64,000 nt of DNA from Xylophilus sp. GW821-FHT01B05 (lineage in GTDB: Bacteria; Pseudomonadota; Gammaproteobacteria; Burkholderiales; Burkholderiaceae_C): positions 4,774,001 through 4,838,000 of the forward strand of contig CP152408.1 of the NCBI GenBank assembly GCA_038961845.1. Reading direction: 5' to 3'. The first letter of the stretch is position 1; each line of letters begins with the position of its first letter. Positions 52,425-62,675 of this stretch are shown piece by piece. The notes beneath the pieces were generated by a model, which saw only the letters and a list, made by a program, of their open reading frames with translations, was not told where the DNA came from and did not search any database. The position numbers were made by a program, and so were the translations under genes.

Positions 52425-53396
52425 ATGAGCCCACTGAACCGCCGCAGCTTTCTTGCAGCTTCCGCACTCCTGTGCGCCCCGCCGCTAGTTTTCGCGAACG
52501 AAGCCTTCCCGAGCAAACCAATTCGCTTGACCACGCCGAACTCCGCGGGCTCGGGAGCGGACGGCATGGCGCGGCGACTCGCGGATCACATGGGCAGAGC
52601 GCTGAAGCAATCCGTGTTCGTCGAAAATCTTCCGGGCGCCGGCGGCTTGATGGGCTCCGAGAACCTGCTGCGCTCGGCGCCCGACGGCAGCACCATCGGC
52701 CTGATCAGCTCCAACTACGTGGTGTTTCCTCATCTGTACAGGAAGTTCGCTTTCGACGTAGTGAAGGACATGACTCCCGTCGCGGGTGTAGCCTCCTCAC
52801 CTATGGTGCTGGTCGCGCGCGCGGACCTCCCGGTGAACAACGTGAGCGAACTCAAGGCGCTGGCCCTGAAAAGCCCGGGCAAGTTGACCATGGGTTCTTC
52901 GGGCAACGGCACGATCCTGCACCTCATGGGCATGTACATGCAGGAGAAGGGGCAGTTCACGCTCACCCACGTGCCATACAAGGGCGTGGCTCCGGTCGTG
53001 CCCGATCTGGTCAGCGGCACCATCGACGTTGCGTTCTTCTCCTATGCGAGTGTCGAAGGCCTCGTGAAACAGGGCAGGCTCAAGCTCCTTGCGGTCTCGA
53101 GCGCAAAACGCTCGCCCGCCATGCCCGAGGTGAAGACCCTGGATGAAGTCTTTCCGGGCTGCGTTCTCGAAGCCTGGTACGCCGTCATCGGCCCCCAGGG
53201 CATACCGCCTGAAATCGCGCACAAGCTCAACGAAAGCATCACCGCCATCGTGCAGTCCGAGTCCTTCAAGGGCCAGATCGCCGCGGAAGGTGCGGTGCCC
53301 ATGCCCATGGCGCCCGACGCGCTGCTGGCTTTCATGAAGGCCGAGTTCATCAAGCACGGCGCACTGGTGTCGCGCTCCGGTGCGGTCATCCAGTGA
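52425..53396 (+). CDS. Bug-family (TTT) periplasmic substrate-binding protein, second copy
   Basis: A 323-residue periplasmic binding protein with a twin-arginine signal peptide (MSPLNRRSFLAASALLCAPP; cleavage after FAN or VFA). Family motifs are IRLTTPNSAGSGADGMARRL, VFVENLPGAGGLMGSENLL, LTMGSSGNGTILHLMGMYMQ and LTHVPYKGVAPVVPDLVSG. The ribosome site AAGGAG is strong. Because it sits inside the catabolic operon, its ligand is probably the substrate of that pathway. Confidence 0.9.
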   Translation: MSPLNRRSFLAASALLCAPPLVFANEAFPSKPIRLTTPNSAGSGADGMARRLADHMGRALKQSVFVENLPGAGGLMGSENLLRSAPDGSTIGLISSNYVVFPHLYRKFAFDVVKDMTPVAGVASSPMVLVARADLPVNNVSELKALALKSPGKLTMGSSGNGTILHLMGMYMQEKGQFTLTHVPYKGVAPVVPDLVSGTIDVAFFSYASVEGLVKQGRLKLLAVSSAKRSPAMPEVKTLDEVFPGCVLEAWYAVIGPQGIPPEIAHKLNESITAIVQSESFKGQIAAEGAVPMPMAPDALLAFMKAEFIKHGALVSRSGAVIQ

Positions 53397-53407
53397 AGGG
53401 GCCAGCC

Positions 53408-54820
53408 ATGACCGCCCGCACCCTCTTTGAGAAGCTGTGGGATCAGCATCACATCGTCGACCTGCCGGGCGGCGAAACGCTGGTCCACATCGACCGCCAT
53501 TTACTGTACGAGATCACGAGCCCTCAAGCGTTCGACGGCTTGCAGCAGGCGGGCAGACGCGTGCGCAACCCGGAACTGACTTTTGGCACCACCGACCACC
53601 TAGTCTCGACGCAGCCCCATCGCGGCGACGAGACGGTGGAAGGCGGGGCCTTGCTGATCCGCGCGTTCCGCGCCAGCACGCTCGCCCACGGAATCCGGCA
53701 CTTCGATGTGCAGGACGCCCAGCAAGGGATTGCCCACGTCATCGCGCCGGAGCTCGGCATCGTCTTGCCCGGCATGACGGTGGTCTGCGGCGACAGCCAC
53801 ACCGGTACCGTCGGTGCGCTGGGCGCCTGGGCCTGGGGCATCGGTACATCGGCCGTGGAACAGGTGCTCGCGACCCAGACGCTCGCGGTACGCAAGCCGA
53901 AGACGATGCGCATCGTGATCGACGGCGAACTGGCGGCGGGCGTGACGCCAAAGGACCTCATCCTTTACCTGATCGGAGAAATCGGAACCGCAGGCGCGAC
54001 CGGCTATGCCCTCGAACTCGCGGGGCGCGCGATCTCCAGCATGCACATGGAGGGGCGCTTTACCCTCTGCAACATGGGCGTGGAGGCTGGTGCGCGCACG
54101 ACATTCATCGCGCCCGACGACATCGCCTTCGACTACATCCGTGGACGCGAGTACGCCCCCAAGGGCGAAGATTTCGATCGCGCGGTGTCGGCCTGGCGAA
54201 GCTTGGTCACCGACGACGGCGCGGTGTTCGACAGGGAGATCCGGCTCGATGCGGCCGCTGCCGCTCCTCAGATCACCTGGGGCACCAGTCCGGAGCAGGT
54301 CATGCCCATCGACGCGGCCGTGCCCGACCCTTCGCTGCTCTCGCAGGTCGAGCAGCGCGGAGCCGCCGAGCGTGCACTCTCCTACATGGGACTGGAAGCC
54401 GGAGCCTCCTTGCTCGGGCTGAAAGTCGATGCCGTCTTCATCGGCTCTTGCACAAACAGCCGGCTGTCGGACCTGGCGGCGGCGGCGGAAGTCGTGCGCG
54501 GGCACAAGGTGGCAGGTCATGTCAGGGCATTGGTGGTGCCGGGCTCCATGACGGTCAAGCGTGAAGCGGAAGCGCAGGGCCTGCACCACGTCTTCCTGGA
54601 CGCCGGCTTCGAGTGGCGAGAGCCGGGATGCTCGATGTGCGCCGCCGTCAACGACGACTTCGTTCTGCCCGGTGCACGTTGCGTCTCCACCTCGAACCGG
54701 AACTTCGAAGGGCGGCAGGGACCGCGTGCGCGCACCCACCTGGGAAGCCCGGCGACCGCAGCCGCCGCAGCGATCGCCGGCGTGATCACTGACGCTCGAC
54801 GGATTGGAGACAGGCCATGA
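53408..54820 (+). CDS. LeuC-like large subunit of an aconitase-type hydratase
   Basis: A 470-residue iron-sulfur hydrolyase subunit of the 3-isopropylmalate dehydratase type. Cluster cysteines are Cys348 region (FIGSCTNSRLSD) and the pair in REPGCSMCAAVNDD near 408-411. Substrate-region motifs are VVCGDSHTGTVGALGAWAWG and STSNRNFEGRQGPRARTHLG. ATG 53408 follows AAGGGG; a GTG at 53393 overlapping the previous stop is less likely. Coupled with leuD. In this operon it more probably hydrates a substituted maleate (such as citraconate) than serving leucine synthesis, because no leuB or leuA is present. Confidence 0.85.
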   Translation: MTARTLFEKLWDQHHIVDLPGGETLVHIDRHLLYEITSPQAFDGLQQAGRRVRNPELTFGTTDHLVSTQPHRGDETVEGGALLIRAFRASTLAHGIRHFDVQDAQQGIAHVIAPELGIVLPGMTVVCGDSHTGTVGALGAWAWGIGTSAVEQVLATQTLAVRKPKTMRIVIDGELAAGVTPKDLILYLIGEIGTAGATGYALELAGRAISSMHMEGRFTLCNMGVEAGARTTFIAPDDIAFDYIRGREYAPKGEDFDRAVSAWRSLVTDDGAVFDREIRLDAAAAAPQITWGTSPEQVMPIDAAVPDPSLLSQVEQRGAAERALSYMGLEAGASLLGLKVDAVFIGSCTNSRLSDLAAAAEVVRGHKVAGHVRALVVPGSMTVKREAEAQGLHHVFLDAGFEWREPGCSMCAAVNDDFVLPGARCVSTSNRNFEGRQGPRARTHLGSPATAAAAAIAGVITDARRIGDRP

Positions 54821-55437
54821 ACCCTTTCACCCAATGGCGAGGCATAGCCGCGCCCATGCCAAAGGCCAACGTGGACACCGACGCGATCATCGCCGTCCAG
54901 CATGTCTACACGCTGAAGAAGTCGGGCTTGGGCGCCTACCTGTTTCATCGGTGGCGATTTGCGCCGGATGGATCGGAGATAGCAGACTTCGTGCTGAATC
55001 GCGCACCGTTTCGAACGGCTTCGATCCTTGTCGCCCGATCGAATTTTGGGTGCGGCAGCTCACGCGAACATGCGGTCTGGGCGCTGGCCGACTTCGGCAT
55101 TCGCTGCATCGTCGCGCCGAGCTTCGCCTCCATCTTTCATGAGAACTGCATTCGAAACGGCATCCTTCCCGTGAGATTGGACGAGGAGATCGTCGACCGT
55201 CTTCTGAACATGCTCGAGCGCAATGAATGCAAGGAAGTGGCAGTGGATCTCAGGGCATCCCGGATCACCCTGCCCGACGGATCCATGAACGCTTTCGCGC
55301 TTGACGAAGCTCAACGCGAGATCCTGCTCCAGGGGCTGGACTCCATCACCGCCGCGGAGCGGCACAAGAGCGACATCACGGCCTTCCAGCAGCGGGACCG
55401 TCAGGTGCGTCCGTGGATCTGGCGTTCAAACAGCTGA
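54817..55437 (+). CDS. LeuD-like small subunit of an aconitase-type hydratase
   Basis: A 206-residue small (swivelling) subunit. Family motifs are MPKANVDTDAIIAVQHVY at residues 14-31, RSNFGCGSSREHAVWAL near 74, and SIFHENCIRNGILPV. The length is like LeuD of leucine biosynthesis. Its ATG overlaps the stop of the large subunit (ATGA), so the two are made in equal amounts. Substrate as for the large subunit: inferred to be a methyl-substituted unsaturated diacid. Confidence 0.87.
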   Translation: MNPFTQWRGIAAPMPKANVDTDAIIAVQHVYTLKKSGLGAYLFHRWRFAPDGSEIADFVLNRAPFRTASILVARSNFGCGSSREHAVWALADFGIRCIVAPSFASIFHENCIRNGILPVRLDEEIVDRLLNMLERNECKEVAVDLRASRITLPDGSMNAFALDEAQREILLQGLDSITAAERHKSDITAFQQRDRQVRPWIWRSNS

Positions 55438-55453
55438 CTCGTCGAAAGAACCC

Positions 55454-56383
55454 ATGCATATCACCATCACCGAAGTCGGCCCCCGCGACGGCCTGCAAAG
55501 CGAGAAGACCTTCATTCCTACCGCCAGGAAAGTGCAGATCATCGATGCGATCTTTGCATCAGGCATACGCTCCGTTGAAGCAACCTCGTTCGTCTCACCT
55601 TCCGCAGTTCCGCAGATGTCGGATGCCGCGGAAGTATTGAGGCAGATCCAGAGGCCGGAGCATTCAGTGGTGAGCGTGCTCGCACCCAACGTCAGGGGCG
55701 CACATAGCGCCATCCGCGCTGGCGCCGACGAACTGGTCGCGTTCGTATCGGCCAGCGAGACACACAATAGAAAGAACCTCAATCGCAGCGTTGCCGAGTC
55801 CCTTGCAAACATTGAAGAGGTCGCTGAACTGGCATCGCAGGAAGGCGTCAGGTTGCGCGCCGCCATAGCCACTGCTTTCGGCTGCCCATTTGAAGGGAAT
55901 ATCGCCGTCGATTCTGTCGTTCGCGTCGCTCGGGCATTCGCTCGCGCGGGGGTAGGGCATTTGACCTTGGCAGACACCACGGGAATGGCCACCCCCAGCA
56001 TTGTCAGGGCTGTATGCGCAAGCGTGCGTGATGCGGTCCCTGACACGAGAATCTCCCTCCACTTCCACAACACGAGGGGTCTTGGCCTCCTCAACGTTGC
56101 CGCCGGCATCGAGCTGCAGATCGATGCCTACGAGTCTTCGATCGCAGGGGTCGGAGGGTGTCCGTTTGCGCCAGGTGCCACAGGGAACGTTTGCACGGAA
56201 GACCTTGTGCATTACTTGCATGAGGAAGGCCACAGTACAGGCATCGACCTCGAAACCCTCGTGCAGGCGGCATGGCTGATGGAAGAGACCCTGGGCCGTG
56301 CCTTGCCAGGCCAGGTAATGCGCGCGGGCAAGCGGCTGCGGCTTTACGACGCCGGTCAATCACCTGATGCCAAAGCTCGATGA
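55454..56383 (+). CDS. HMG-CoA lyase-like enzyme, candidate citramalyl-CoA lyase
   Basis: A 309-residue TIM-barrel lyase of the HMGL family, which cleaves 3-hydroxy-3-methylacyl-CoA thioesters by retro-Claisen reaction. All catalytic elements are visible: VGPRDGLQSEKTF at 9-20, the metal-binding His pair in SLHFHNTRGLG near 200, and the catalytic Cys in GGCPFAPGATGNVCTEDLV near 235. ATG 55454 is 16 bp after the leuD stop. With the CoA-transferase in the operon, citramalyl-CoA to pyruvate and acetyl-CoA is a chemically apt reaction; this is inference. Confidence 0.88.
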   Translation: MHITITEVGPRDGLQSEKTFIPTARKVQIIDAIFASGIRSVEATSFVSPSAVPQMSDAAEVLRQIQRPEHSVVSVLAPNVRGAHSAIRAGADELVAFVSASETHNRKNLNRSVAESLANIEEVAELASQEGVRLRAAIATAFGCPFEGNIAVDSVVRVARAFARAGVGHLTLADTTGMATPSIVRAVCASVRDAVPDTRISLHFHNTRGLGLLNVAAGIELQIDAYESSIAGVGGCPFAPGATGNVCTEDLVHYLHEEGHSTGIDLETLVQAAWLMEETLGRALPGQVMRAGKRLRLYDAGQSPDAKAR

Positions 56384-57609: not shown

Positions 57610-57803
57610 ATCGTGGACGCGCAGGGATTTCTCCATGCTGTGGCGGTGACGACAGCCGAGGTGACAGACCGCAAGGGCGCGCTGCAGGCATTCAAACGCT
57701 GCAAGTCCTCTCTCACGCAAGTCCACAGCCTGCTGGCAGACGCCGGCTACGCGGGAGAACTCTTCGCGCAGGGCGTGCGCGACATCCTGGCGCTACTGCT
57801 CAG
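57610..57803 (+). pseudogene. IS5-like transposase fragment
   Basis: The frame beginning GTG 57613 reads MDAQGFLHAVAVTTAEVTDR, then KGALQAF, later LADAGYAGELFAQGVRDIL. This is the region around the second catalytic aspartate (DAGY) of IS5/IS427-type transposases. Both ends are lost, upstream frames are broken by a stop, and the downstream part (from about 57803) no longer matches. It differs from the IS5 fragment at 45725, so it comes from another element. From 57804 to 57932 I see no gene. Confidence 0.75.
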
Positions 57804-57932
57804 GAGAGCGCGAACACGTTCTAAGCCTTTCACCTTCCGTAATTCGGGCCCGGGATTTGCTTATTACAAAACAGACGATCGATTGTCAGACAATCCATCC
57901 ACAATCCGAGCTCCTTACCTTGAGGCCCCTGC

Positions 57933-58721
57933 ATGAGCGATCCGATCATTCGAATCACAGGCTTGAACAAGCACTTCGGTGATAACCACGTCCTGCGCGG
58001 CATCGACCTTGATGTCCAGAAGGGGGAAAAGATTGCAATCCTGGGCGCCAGCGGCTCCGGCAAGAGCACGCTGCTGCGCTGCCTGAACTTCATGGAGATG
58101 CCCAGCGCCGGCCGCATCGAGCTGGATGGCCAGGTGATCGGCAAGCCCGCCCGCTCGTCGAGTCCCACTGATCTGCAGATGAGCTACACCACAGGCGAAC
58201 TCTCCGAAGTCCGCAGGCGCGTCGGCATGGTGTTCCAGCAGTTCAACCTGTTCCCGCACATGAGCGTGCTGGCAAATGTCATGGAGGGCCTGGTGACGGT
58301 CCTTCGGCTGTCGGTGGGCGAGGCCAGGGCCCGCTCCATGGCTCAGCTCGAAAAGGTTGGCATGGCGCACAAGGCCGATGCCTATCCCGGCCGGCTATCG
58401 GGCGGCCAGCAACAGCGCGTAGCCATCGCCCGTGCCCTGGCGATGGACCCTGAGGTTCTGCTTTTCGACGAACCCACTTCGTCGCTGGACCCTGAACTTG
58501 TGGGCGAAGTGCTGAACGTCATCCGCGACCTGGCGCAAGAGGGCCGGACCATGCTGCTCGTCACCCACGAAGTCGGGTTCGCCTACCACTACGCCGACCG
58601 CGTTCTGTTCCTGGCCGACGGCCAGTTCTACGAAACCGGCACCCCTGACCAGGTACTGAAGCATCCGCAGCGGGAACGCACACAGCGTTTTCTGGAGCGC
58701 TTCACCGCTTTCAATTTCTGA
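57933..58721 (+). CDS. Polar amino-acid ABC transporter, ATPase
   Basis: A 262-residue ATPase of the GlnQ/HisP type. Walker [19 protein letters not shown] near residue 34, Q-loop VFQQFNLFPHMSV, signature LSGGQQQRVAIARALAMDP, Walker B VLLFDEPTSSLDPELV, and switch His in VTHEVGFAYHYADRV. A stretch of about 20 extra residues (RSSSPTDLQMSYTTGELSEV) before the Q-loop is typical of the HisP subgroup. It is the first gene of an operon with an aminotransferase homologue, binding protein and two permeases. Confidence 0.93.
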   Translation: MSDPIIRITGLNKHFGDNHVLRGIDLDVQKGEKIAILGASGSGKSTLLRCLNFMEMPSAGRIELDGQVIGKPARSSSPTDLQMSYTTGELSEVRRRVGMVFQQFNLFPHMSVLANVMEGLVTVLRLSVGEARARSMAQLEKVGMAHKADAYPGRLSGGQQQRVAIARALAMDPEVLLFDEPTSSLDPELVGEVLNVIRDLAQEGRTMLLVTHEVGFAYHYADRVLFLADGQFYETGTPDQVLKHPQRERTQRFLERFTAFNF

Positions 58722-58747: not shown

Positions 58748-59668
58748 ATGCAAGCATCCCCTCAAGCCTCGACGACGAGTTCACAGTCCTACCTGCCCGA
58801 TGAGCGAAATGCGCAGGTCCTGGTCTACGTCAACGGCGAATTCGTTCCCCGCGCCGAAGCGTGCATCTCTGTCTTCGATGCCGGCTACGTGTGCGGCGAC
58901 GGCGTCTGGGAGGGCGTGCGCCTGGTCAAGGGCAAAGTCGTCTCCTTCGATGCGCACGTGGATCGCCTGCTGGAAGGCGCACGCACGATCCAGATGGACA
59001 TTGGCCTGTCCAAAGAGCAGATCAAGGCGGTCATCACCTCGACCTTCGAGAAGAACGGCATGAGCGATGGCGCCCATGCACGGCTGATGGTCACACGCGG
59101 CATCAAGAAAACGCCCAACCAGGACCCGCGCTTCATCATCGGCGGCCCCACCCTCGTCTGCGTGGCAGAACACAAGGTCGTCACGGCCGAAGCCAAGAAG
59201 CGCGGCTTGAATCTGTTCACCTCCACCGTGCGCTGCAGCGCGCCGGACGTGTTCGACCTGCGGCTGAACTCGCACAGCCGGCTCAACCTCATCCAGGCCC
59301 TGATCCAGGCCATCAACGCCGGTGCGGATGAGGCCATCATGCTCGACCCCATGGGCTTCGTTTCGAGCTGCAACTCGACAAACTTCTTCATCGTGCGCAA
59401 GGGCGCGCTGTGGACGTCCTCCGGCAAGTACTGCTTCAACGGCATCACCCGGGCCACGGTGCTGCGTCTTGCGCGCGAGGCCGGCATACCGGTTTTCGAG
59501 GGCGACTTCACGCTGGCCGACATGTACAACGCCGAAGAAGCCTTTGTCACCGGCACGCTCGGTGGCATCACTCCGGTCTCACGGATCGACGGACGCACCA
59601 TCGTCGGCGGCGCAGTCACCGCGCGCCTGGACACGCTCTACCGCCAGTACATCGGGCAGATCGAGTGA
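58748..59668 (+). CDS. Class IV aminotransferase homologue, apparently without the PLP lysine
   Basis: A 306-residue protein of the branched-chain/D-amino-acid aminotransferase (fold-type IV) family. N-terminal domain: VYVNGEFVPRAEACISVFDA, then GYVCGDGVWEGVRL. Phosphate-contact regions: GFVSSCNSTNFFIVRKG and NGITRATVLRLAREAGIPVF. At the place where the PLP-binding lysine should start the interdomain helix, the sequence is LNSHSRLNLIQALIQ, with Arg178, and no lysine occurs between residues 152 and 217. It may be inactive, use another residue, or have a new role. Within a transporter operon it could act on the imported amino acid. Confidence 0.8.
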   Translation: MQASPQASTTSSQSYLPDERNAQVLVYVNGEFVPRAEACISVFDAGYVCGDGVWEGVRLVKGKVVSFDAHVDRLLEGARTIQMDIGLSKEQIKAVITSTFEKNGMSDGAHARLMVTRGIKKTPNQDPRFIIGGPTLVCVAEHKVVTAEAKKRGLNLFTSTVRCSAPDVFDLRLNSHSRLNLIQALIQAINAGADEAIMLDPMGFVSSCNSTNFFIVRKGALWTSSGKYCFNGITRATVLRLAREAGIPVFEGDFTLADMYNAEEAFVTGTLGGITPVSRIDGRTIVGGAVTARLDTLYRQYIGQIE

Positions 59669-59717: not shown

Positions 59718-60569
59718 ATGAACCTCTCCCTTCACCGCTCGGGCATGCGCAGACTCTTCGCCATCGCCATGTCCGTTCTTCTCTCATTCGCGGCAACAAC
59801 GGGCTGGGCGCAAACCAACACCCTGCAAAAGATCAAGCAGGCCGGCGAGCTCAAGATTGGCGTGGCGCAGGGCGATCCCTGGTACTACCGCGATCCTGCT
59901 ACGGGCACCTGGACCGGCCTGGGCGTCATGATCGGCCAGACCATCGCCAAGGACCTGGGCGTCAAGCTCGTGCCGGTCGAGACGACCTACGGCAACAGCG
60001 TGGCCGCACTGCAGGCCGGCCAGATCGACGTGATGTTTGTGCTCGACGCCACCGATGAGCGCAAGAAGGCGGTCGACTTCCCGACCAAACCGCTGCTCTG
60101 GTACGCGCAAGGCGTGCTGACCAAGGACAGCCTGGTGGCCAAGAACTGGAGCGATCTGGACAAGCCCGAGATCAAGCTGGGAGTGGCGCTCGGCACCGCC
60201 ACCGACCGCGACCTGACCAAGCGCATCCCGCAGGCCAAGCTCGAGCGCTTCACCAACACCGACGAGACAATTGCCGCATTCATGTCCGGCCGCGTTGACG
60301 GCATCGCCTTCTACCACCCCGCGCTCGTCATCGCGTACTCGAAGATCCACAAGGGCAAGGTGCAGATTCCCCAGCCCGTCGTTGCGCTGCCCACCAGCGC
60401 CGGCATTCGCCGCGAGCCGGACACGGCCTTCCGCGACTTCCTCGACGACGAGTTCTCCAAGCTCTACACCTCGGGCCAGACCCAGGCCTTGTACGCCCAG
60501 TACTTGAAAACCAAGGGACTGGACGCAGCCACCCTGCCTGGCGTGACCAAGGAAGCACTGGAAAGATAA
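59718..60569 (+). CDS. Polar amino-acid ABC transporter, substrate-binding protein
   Basis: A 283-residue periplasmic binding protein of family 3. Signal peptide MNLSLHRSGMRRLFAIAMSV to about residue 32 (GWA-Q). Mature motifs are LQKIKQAGELKIGVAQGDPW, VPVETTYGNSVAALQAGQID and VMFVLDATDERKKAVDFPTK. The arginine usually contacting the ligand carboxylate in this region is replaced by a DATDER sequence that still contains Arg. ATG 59718 follows AAGGAAC. The ligand cannot be determined; polar or aromatic amino acids are possible. Confidence 0.92.
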   Translation: MNLSLHRSGMRRLFAIAMSVLLSFAATTGWAQTNTLQKIKQAGELKIGVAQGDPWYYRDPATGTWTGLGVMIGQTIAKDLGVKLVPVETTYGNSVAALQAGQIDVMFVLDATDERKKAVDFPTKPLLWYAQGVLTKDSLVAKNWSDLDKPEIKLGVALGTATDRDLTKRIPQAKLERFTNTDETIAAFMSGRVDGIAFYHPALVIAYSKIHKGKVQIPQPVVALPTSAGIRREPDTAFRDFLDDEFSKLYTSGQTQALYAQYLKTKGLDAATLPGVTKEALER

Positions 60570-60593: not shown

Positions 60594-61274
60594 ATGAACT
60601 ACGAGTGGGACTTCGGCGCCGTCTGGGCACACCGCGACATGCTGCTGGCCGGCGCCTTCGGCACCTTGAAGATTGCGGCGGTGGCGATCCTGATCGGCGT
60701 CGCCATCGGCGCGGTGCTGGCAAGCATGCGCTTGTCCAAACGCCGCTGGCTCGAACTCCCCGCCATCTGGTTCACCGAGTTCTATCGCAACACGCCGCCG
60801 CTGATTCACTTCTTCTGGGCCTTCTATGGCCTGCCGGTGTTGATCGGCGTGAGCCTCGACCCTTACGTGGCGGCCATCATCGCGCTCTCGACGCAATCCG
60901 GTGCGTTCTACGCCGAGGTGATCCGCGGCGGCGTGGTCTCGGTCGAGCGCGGCCAGTGGGAGGGCGCCCGCGCGATCGGCATGAAGCCGGCGCAAGTCGT
61001 GCGCCGCGTGATCCTGCCGCAGGCGGCGCAGCGAATGCTCCCGCCATTCCTTGAGCGCTCCTTCGAGCTGATCAAGACCACGGCGCTGGCCTCTACGCTG
61101 GCGTATTCCGACCTGATGTACCAGGCGATGCAGGTCAACTCGATCACCTTCCGGCCGCTGGAGGTCTACACCTTCGTGGCGGGCACCTTCTTTGTGTCGC
61201 TGCTGTGCCTGAGCTTCCTCGCGCACCTGCTTGAGCGGCGCCTGTCCCGCTTCACCCTCCTTCCCGCGAGCTGA
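60594..61274 (+). CDS. Polar amino-acid ABC transporter, permease 1
   Basis: A 226-residue inner-membrane permease of the HisMQ/GlnP family with about five helices. FYRNTPPLIHFFWAFYGLPV is a family signature, and the coupling loop EVIRGGVVSVERGQWEGARAIGM lies near residue 110. It is followed 6 bp later by the second permease, the two forming the heterodimeric channel. Confidence 0.93.
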   Translation: MNYEWDFGAVWAHRDMLLAGAFGTLKIAAVAILIGVAIGAVLASMRLSKRRWLELPAIWFTEFYRNTPPLIHFFWAFYGLPVLIGVSLDPYVAAIIALSTQSGAFYAEVIRGGVVSVERGQWEGARAIGMKPAQVVRRVILPQAAQRMLPPFLERSFELIKTTALASTLAYSDLMYQAMQVNSITFRPLEVYTFVAGTFFVSLLCLSFLAHLLERRLSRFTLLPAS

Positions 61275-61280
61275 TCGGCC

Positions 61281-61946
61281 ATGGACTTCACCTGGGATTT
61301 CTCGTCGGTCGTCCAGAACTATCCGGTGCTGCTGAAGGGCGTGGGCATGACTGCGCTGCTCTGGATCATTGCCTTTCCGCTGTCGATGCTGATCGGCTTT
61401 GTCCTATCGCTGGGTGCGCGCTCGCGCTTGCGCGCGTTGCGCGCACTCACGCGGGTGTACGTCGAAGTGTTTCGCAACACGCCTGTGATCATCCAGTTGA
61501 TCTGGTTCTTCTACGCATTCCCGATCCTGACAGGCTACCAGCTCAGCCCCATCACCGCGGCCTTGTGCGGCCTGATCCTCAATGCCTCGGCCTACTGCTC
61601 GGAGATCTTCCGTGGCGGGATGGCCTCGATTCCCAAAGGCCAGTGGGAAGGTGCGCACGCCGTCGGCATGAGCCACGCACAGGCGCTGCGGCGCATCATC
61701 GTGCCGCAAGTGCTGGTGCGCATGCTGCCGGCCTTCACCAACCGCGGCATCGAGCTGGCGAAGAACACCTCCATCGCCTCGGTCATCGCCGTGCAGGAGC
61801 TGATGTACCAGGGCCGTGCGCTCAGCTCGGTCTACTACCACCCGCTGGAGGCGCTGACGACGGTCGCCGTGATCTACTTCGTGCTGATCTATCCGGGCGC
61901 GTTCTGGGCCTCTCGCTTCGAGAAGCGCTTCGCGCTGCGCGCCTGA
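61281..61946 (+). CDS. Polar amino-acid ABC transporter, permease 2
   Basis: A 221-residue permease homologous to permease 1. Signature FRNTPVIIQLIWFFYAFPIL near residue 63 and coupling loop EIFRGGMASIPKGQWEGAHAV near 110. About five helices. It ends 42 bp before the GntR gene on the same strand, and the whole run from the ATPase to GntR is probably one transcript. Confidence 0.93.
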   Translation: MDFTWDFSSVVQNYPVLLKGVGMTALLWIIAFPLSMLIGFVLSLGARSRLRALRALTRVYVEVFRNTPVIIQLIWFFYAFPILTGYQLSPITAALCGLILNASAYCSEIFRGGMASIPKGQWEGAHAVGMSHAQALRRIIVPQVLVRMLPAFTNRGIELAKNTSIASVIAVQELMYQGRALSSVYYHPLEALTTVAVIYFVLIYPGAFWASRFEKRFALRA

Positions 61947-61988: not shown

Positions 61989-62675
61989 ATGTCCACCCTC
62001 CCCACCTTCCAGCCCATTCCATCGGTCACCAGACGAGACCACGTGGCGGCAGCGCTGAAGAAGTCCATCCTGGCCGGGCAGATCCCGCCCGGCACGCAAC
62101 TGGTCGAAAGCGGCCTTGCCACCCAGTTCGGCGTCAGCCGCGGCCTGCTGCGCGAAGCCATCCGCGAGCTGATCGAGTCCGGCCTCGTGGTCAACCGGCC
62201 CTACGCCGGGACTTTCGTGACAGACATCAACGAGCAGATCCTGCGCGACGCCTACGAGGTCCGCCGCGTCCTCGAACGGCAGGCCTACATCAGCCTCTGG
62301 CCACGCCGCGATCAGGCGTTTCGAGACGAACTGCAATCACGCTTCGAGCTGATGATGCAAGCCGTGGCGAGCGATGACCTCACCGAAGAAATCAGGGCAG
62401 AGGCGCACTTCCACGGCCTGGTCTATGAGCGATGCGGCAACCATCTCATGCCAGCGCTGTGGCAGCAGATGACGCAGAAGATCCAACTCGGCTTCGCCAT
62501 CTGCCAGATTTCGCATGCCCCCAAGCTCGACTTCGAGGAAAACCATCGGAGGCTGCTCGAGCTGACGCTAGGAGACGATCTCCACGCGCTATTGGAAGAA
62601 CTCGACATTCACCTCAATCGTGGTCTTGCCACCATTGAATTCACGTCTCGCTCTGCCAGCAAGCCGTCTGTCTAG
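61989..62675 (+). CDS. GntR-family regulator (FadR/FCD subfamily)
   Basis: A 228-residue repressor-type regulator. Winged helix (residues 15-80) with LVESGLATQFGVSRGLLREA as recognition region, and an all-helical FCD effector domain. The metal-binding residues of FCD domains are suggested by AEAHFHGLVYERCGN and FEENHRRLLE. It is the last gene of the transporter operon and probably controls it. A GCGCCC/GGGCGC inverted repeat (62675-62695) follows the stop, between this gene and the convergent one. Confidence 0.9.
   Translation: MSTLPTFQPIPSVTRRDHVAAALKKSILAGQIPPGTQLVESGLATQFGVSRGLLREAIRELIESGLVVNRPYAGTFVTDINEQILRDAYEVRRVLERQAYISLWPRRDQAFRDELQSRFELMMQAVASDDLTEEIRAEAHFHGLVYERCGNHLMPALWQQMTQKIQLGFAICQISHAPKLDFEENHRRLLELTLGDDLHALLEELDIHLNRGLATIEFTSRSASKPSV

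Follow-up and report, generated by a model that had tools for sequence, protein, structure and literature searches.

What can a class IV aminotransferase homologue do without the lysine that usually holds its cofactor? The question is raised by a gene for a 306-residue protein in a 64,000-nucleotide stretch (the window) of the assembly of Xylophilus sp. GW821-FHT01B05. The Schiff-base lysine is the usual recognition residue of enzymes that depend on pyridoxal 5'-phosphate (PLP). The protein matches the whole class IV aminotransferase profile in a Pfam search (PF01063, 153.3 bits against a gathering threshold of 28.5, profile positions 1-223 of 223). It departs from the active class IV transaminases of the branched-chain (BCAT) and D-amino acid (DAAT) types in having Asn174 for the Schiff-base lysine and Ser207 for a conserved glutamate. 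Eighteen class IV models of NCBIfam match it, all below their cut-offs, the highest scores being those of PRK08320 (237.7 versus 363) and ilvE_I (186.3 versus 245.55). The top solved matches are 7z79 (E 1.1e-157; 74% identity), entitled "Crystal structure of aminotransferase-like protein from Variovorax paradoxus", and 9j32 (E 7.2e-157), whose title adds "mutant N174K". The window protein has the same fold as 7z79 and the residues that mark its lysine-less family, namely Asn174, His176, Ser177, Arg or Lys at 178 and Ser or Thr at 207. Judged by its sequence, it adds a member to a lysine-less fold-type IV family for which crystal structures already exist, and we are very confident both of this assignment and of Asn174 as the lysine column. 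The absence of the lysine is not new, as 7z79 and 9j32 precede this work. Since 9j32 is the N174K form of the 7z79 protein, its depositors knew of the missing lysine and of its place. What is added here is the scale of the family.

The lysine column was placed by comparison with 5cm0, the branched-chain aminotransferase of Geoglobus, in which NIKSLNYLN aligns without gaps to RLNSHSRLN of the window protein and the lysine falls on Asn174. The same placement is obtained with two canonical relatives (L138 and L139, both RIKSLNYLN) and with a second homologue in the same assembly (one contig, 5.83 Mb), which has 31% identity and the canonical lysine; beyond this copy, a search of the assembly with the window protein as query returned no other homologue. 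The preliminary description of this locus had rightly reported a class IV homologue lacking the PLP lysine, but it named Arg178 as the replacing residue and was off by four positions. Arg178 as the lysine column is ruled out by the alignments, as it would require a four-residue gap that none of them uses. Column 178 is a tyrosine in 5cm0, L138 and L139, and in branched-chain enzymes this tyrosine lies near the 3'-oxygen of PLP. The translation bears out that there are no lysines among residues 152-217. The argument that a CGG codon makes a sequencing error unlikely does not apply, because the column is Asn174 and its codon is AAC; likewise, changing Arg178 to lysine would put a lysine in the wrong column, and a structure with the matching substitution in a close relative, N174K, has already been deposited as 9j32. 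The glutamate of 5cm0 GYISEGSGDN, which in canonical enzymes contacts the pyridine nitrogen of PLP, aligns with Ser207. Arg73, Thr234 and Thr270, in whose columns canonical enzymes bind the phosphate of the cofactor, are retained in the branch of the window protein; the preliminary description had noted that the phosphate-binding loops are preserved.

The altered site is shared by every natural family member that was read. A family-level survey of 299 genomes gave 16 with a match at 1e-60, including the genome under study, and all 16 have Asn174. Across the phylum, 43 of 398 genomes matched at 1e-50; 41 of these have Asn174 and two are canonical (L138 and L139, 39-40% identity). An alignment of 366 rows was then assembled from the window protein, 240 listed proteins (two listings, each 120 of 8000 scored), 45 loci (L003-L047) and 80 named loci (L048-L127). 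Removal of the engineered sequence P0089, the fragment L017 and duplicates left 353 distinct natural rows, the window protein included. Asn174 and His176 are present in all 353, and Arg73 and Thr234 are invariant across the alignment save for one fragment gap. Columns 178 and 207 read Arg and Ser (n = 188), Lys and Thr (n = 164) or Lys and Ala (n = 1).

The pairing of Arg178 with Ser207 and of Lys178 with Thr207 holds in 352 of the 353 rows, and may be functional or merely reflect one split between two clades.

P0089 was the lone sequence reading KSHSR in one listing of 120 proteins; as it has a UniRef source only and no contig, it was taken to be the engineered 9j32 chain. A natural lysine form was also sought. 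A degenerate DNA pattern for it occurred at 19 places in 18 of the 398 genomes, only one of which is also among the 43 family-positive genomes, and there the pattern match and the family homologue lie on different contigs. Ten of the 19 places (L128-L137) were searched for a more restrictive motif within uninterrupted stretches longer than 60 amino acids; only L134 had it, in an unrelated-looking protein, and the frames at L130-L132 are interrupted by stops. The matching asparagine pattern was found at 50 places in 48 of the 398 genomes, several of them outside the family and thus chance matches.

A maximum-likelihood tree of 73 rows (midpoint root, three canonical outgroup rows) separates the Asn174 family from the canonical rows (support 100/100) and unites the 43 Arg178 rows in one group (support 100/97). 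Arg178 likely arose from Lys178. This order is given only as likely because the best tree requires two changes for the 27 Lys178 rows, although a single change suffices in 30% of the bootstrap trees.

The gene neighbourhood was compared in the best 80 of 585 confirmed stretches (at least 593 were found), a set which is not unbiased on asparagine versus lysine, because one of the two search patterns contains Asn174. It comprises 58 loci of the Arg178 type and 22 of the Lys178 type, and 3.5 kb are present on both sides of the gene in 52 of the 80. The importer was scored as adjacent when an ATPase of at least 55% identity lay within 1.6 kb (5 kb for L065), thresholds of our own choosing, and neighbours were clustered with a crude script based on open reading frames (ORFs) and Louvain grouping. 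An ATPase of the amino-acid-type ATP-binding cassette (ABC) importer is adjacent in 33 of the 58 Arg178-type loci, spanning alpha-, beta- and gammaproteobacteria, and in none of the 22 Lys178-type loci. For a GntR homologue within 5.5 kb, the corresponding counts are 27 and none. The gene order differs between loci, being ATPase-gene-binding protein-permeases in some and binding protein-permeases-ATPase-gene in others, and this variation favours selection on the link between gene and importer. Lys178-type loci have other company: a neighbour from the Sulfotransfer_5 (PF19798) cluster occurs in 14 of the 22, versus four of the 58 Arg178-type loci. As the two types keep different neighbours, the role of the family is not tied to the importer.

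The Sulfotransfer_5 cluster has members at 18 of the 80 loci (L097, L099, L102-L105, L107, L108, L110, L113, L115, L116, L119-L121, L123, L126 and L127). All four members checked by Pfam were positive, and in 15 of the 18 loci the gene lies immediately downstream on the same strand. The pairing is conserved in Proteobacteria, Rubrobacter, Chloroflexota and Balneolaceae bins. In three Arg178-type loci (L057, L067 and L072), large downstream genes on the opposite strand cluster with hydantoinase B/oxoprolinase (by Pfam for L057 only), which may give a clue to what the importer carries.

Taken from sequence, the protein is probably a conserved non-transaminase which keeps the phosphate cup, binds PLP or pyridoxamine 5'-phosphate (PMP) in the absence of a Lys174 aldimine and takes the imported compound as its substrate or its signal. 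With no lysine at 174 to form an internal aldimine, it would be incapable of the usual ping-pong transamination. PLP, PMP or a ready-made aldimine would be held without covalent attachment, and non-covalent binding of the cofactor is itself somewhat more likely than not. The pocket formed by Asn174, His176, Arg178 and Ser207 would then either sense the imported compound or catalyse a step on it that needs no lysine. Catalysis seems slightly favoured over pure sensing, since relatives without an adjacent importer also keep the pocket fixed, and the strict conservation of the altered active site points more to a functional site, for a ligand or for catalysis; that catalysis is the main role may be put at a little below an even chance. 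More tentatively, the branch may represent a distinct lysine-independent class of fold-type IV enzymes with a reaction other than transamination. Here the phosphate cup alone would hold PLP, PMP or an amino-acid aldimine, His176 and Arg178 or Lys178 would assume the acid-base work of the lysine, and Ser or Thr at 207 would substitute for the pyridine-nitrogen glutamate; the Arg178 type would serve the compound that the importer takes up, and proteins of the Lys178 type would work beside the Sulfotransfer_5 proteins.

Several observations speak against a lysine-independent, cofactor-binding role beside the importer. The binding of PLP is deduced from sequence, and the loss of the glutamate column along with the lysine is also compatible with no PLP chemistry whatever. 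By our thresholds, 25 of the 58 Arg178-type loci have no importer of this kind, partly because the loci are short, so that the association is common without being universal. That the lysine was lost only once is a provisional conclusion, as the outgroup consists of three rows, one with a branch length of 5.27. Lastly, Lys120 and Lys143 are each present in 188 of 188 Arg178-type rows, which is compatible with a relocated Schiff-base lysine. An ordinary PLP enzyme using, for example, Lys120, or Lys178 in the sister type (165 of 165 rows), is nevertheless improbable. The turn holding Lys120 does face the pocket in canonical enzymes, but Lys120 is found in only 158 of the 165 Lys178-type rows, with arginine in six, and is thus dispensable there, and Lys178 is of no use to the window protein, which has arginine. 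That the depositors solved an N174K mutant also hints, though it is no proof, that no other Schiff-base lysine was apparent to them.

Also unlikely, though deserving more weight, is a pure pseudoenzyme which binds a cofactor or an amino acid and regulates the adjoining importer, for instance via contact with the ATPase or the permeases. The importer ATPase beside so many Arg178-type genes, in several proteobacterial classes and more than one gene order, fits such a role, as does the alteration of both the lysine and the glutamate columns. However, the Lys178-type relatives retain Asn174 and His176 with the importer at none of their 22 loci, and the invariant pocket residues exceed the needs of docking. 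The preliminary description had offered a pseudoenzyme regulating transport and unusual chemistry as alternatives, and as alternatives they stand, as the evidence does not decide between a pseudoenzyme and new chemistry; regulation of the importer cannot be what the family as a whole does, because none of the 22 Lys178-type loci (11 of them with 3.5 kb on both sides) has this importer beside the gene. It is scarcely credible that the gene is a transaminase gene in decay or wrongly annotated, or that the lysine codon was misread in sequencing. AAC is a single base change from a lysine codon, but the universal Asn174 of the distinct natural rows contradicts this explanation, and the solved relative 7z79 also has Asn174. 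The gene is under purifying selection, with a ratio of nonsynonymous to synonymous substitution (dN/dS) of 0.06-0.29 against six relatives (a simple Nei-Gojobori count, in which dS is high).

The gene was described as lying between the ATPase and binding-protein genes of an amino-acid importer, and Pfam confirms an ABC-type run. On one strand, the ATPase gene is followed by the aminotransferase-like gene, a family 3 binding protein, two permeases and a GntR/FCD regulator (Table 1). Gene content and order, including the regulator, are identical in L048-L051. The closest solved sequences to the binding protein are ancestral cyclohexadienyl-dehydratase/amino-acid-binding constructs (E 2.1e-27), and among the matches listed no curated NCBIfam transporter equivalog reached its cut-off.

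Table 1. Features of the importer run and key codons of the aminotransferase-like gene (window coordinates).
Feature	Position	Strand	Basis or remark
ABC importer ATPase, polar amino acid type	57933..58721	+	PF00005; NCBIfam TcyN, EhuA and HisP best, each below cut-off
Class IV aminotransferase-like protein, 306 aa, without Schiff-base lysine	58748..59668	+	
Asn174 codon AAC, Schiff-base lysine column	59267..59269	+	Alignments and codon reading
His176 codon	59273..59275	+	Invariant, 353/353 distinct rows
Arg178 codon CGG, four residues past the lysine column	59279..59281	+	Candidate of the preliminary description
Ser207 codon, canonical Glu column	59366..59368	+	Alignment; pairing with residue 178
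Family 3 solute-binding protein	59718..60569	+	PF00497, E 1.8e-18
ABC importer permease A	60594..61274	+	PF00528; TIGR01726 above cut-off
ABC importer permease B	61281..61946	+	PF00528; TIGR01726 above cut-off
GntR/FCD transcriptional regulator, last of run	61989..62675	+	PF00392 and PF07729

Upstream of the importer genes, 53393-56383 holds LeuC-like and LeuD-like subunits and then an HMGL-like gene, a set of the isopropylmalate-dehydratase type. The end of an ORF at 56390-56893 matches positions 103-149 of 150 only of the acyl-CoA dehydrogenase C-terminal domain profile (PF00441); this ORF, which lies upstream of the operon, is apparently what is left of a gene. Directly before the ATPase gene, a short piece of a DDE transposase (57613-57936; PF01609, profile positions 43-96 of 200) is probably an insertion-sequence remnant.

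The family lacks the lysine and has kept its altered pocket almost unchanged, and it occurs in 41 of the 398 genomes sampled across the phylum; it represents either B6 chemistry that has gone unrecognised or a pseudoenzyme of wide distribution. Its members are often labelled branched-chain aminotransferases in source databases, and such labels mislead metabolic reconstruction. Both readings can be tested directly, by way of the near-exact pairing of columns 178 and 207 and of the importer link.

Among known systems, the nearest is 7z79, a separate copy of the family with 317 residues versus 306 in the window protein and an identical LNSHSRLN motif; within this motif, Lys at 174 is the sole difference of 9j32 from 7z79. 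A literature search on 7z79, 9j32 and the family returned no paper, although subscription journals lay mostly outside its scope and a publication may well exist. The Arabidopsis branched-chain-aminotransferase-like proteins may be fused relatives, and a literature search on their names gave nothing useful. The closest canonical comparison is with the archaeal branched-chain aminotransferases of Geoglobus acetivorans (5cm0 and 5e25) and Archaeoglobus fulgidus (5mqz), where the Lys, Tyr and Glu of 5cm0 stand against Asn174, Arg178 and Ser207 of the window protein. A fold-type IV enzyme with serine in place of the pyridine-nitrogen glutamate exists in 1g2w, by its title the E177S mutant of D-amino acid aminotransferase; we take its column to be that of Ser207, and the difference is that 1g2w is an engineered single change. 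Precedent for lysine-free B6 chemistry comes from the ColD-type PMP-dependent dehydratases, PLP-fold proteins in which histidine replaces the catalytic lysine. These belong to fold type I and carry the histidine at the lysine position itself, whereas the window protein has asparagine there and His176 two residues later.
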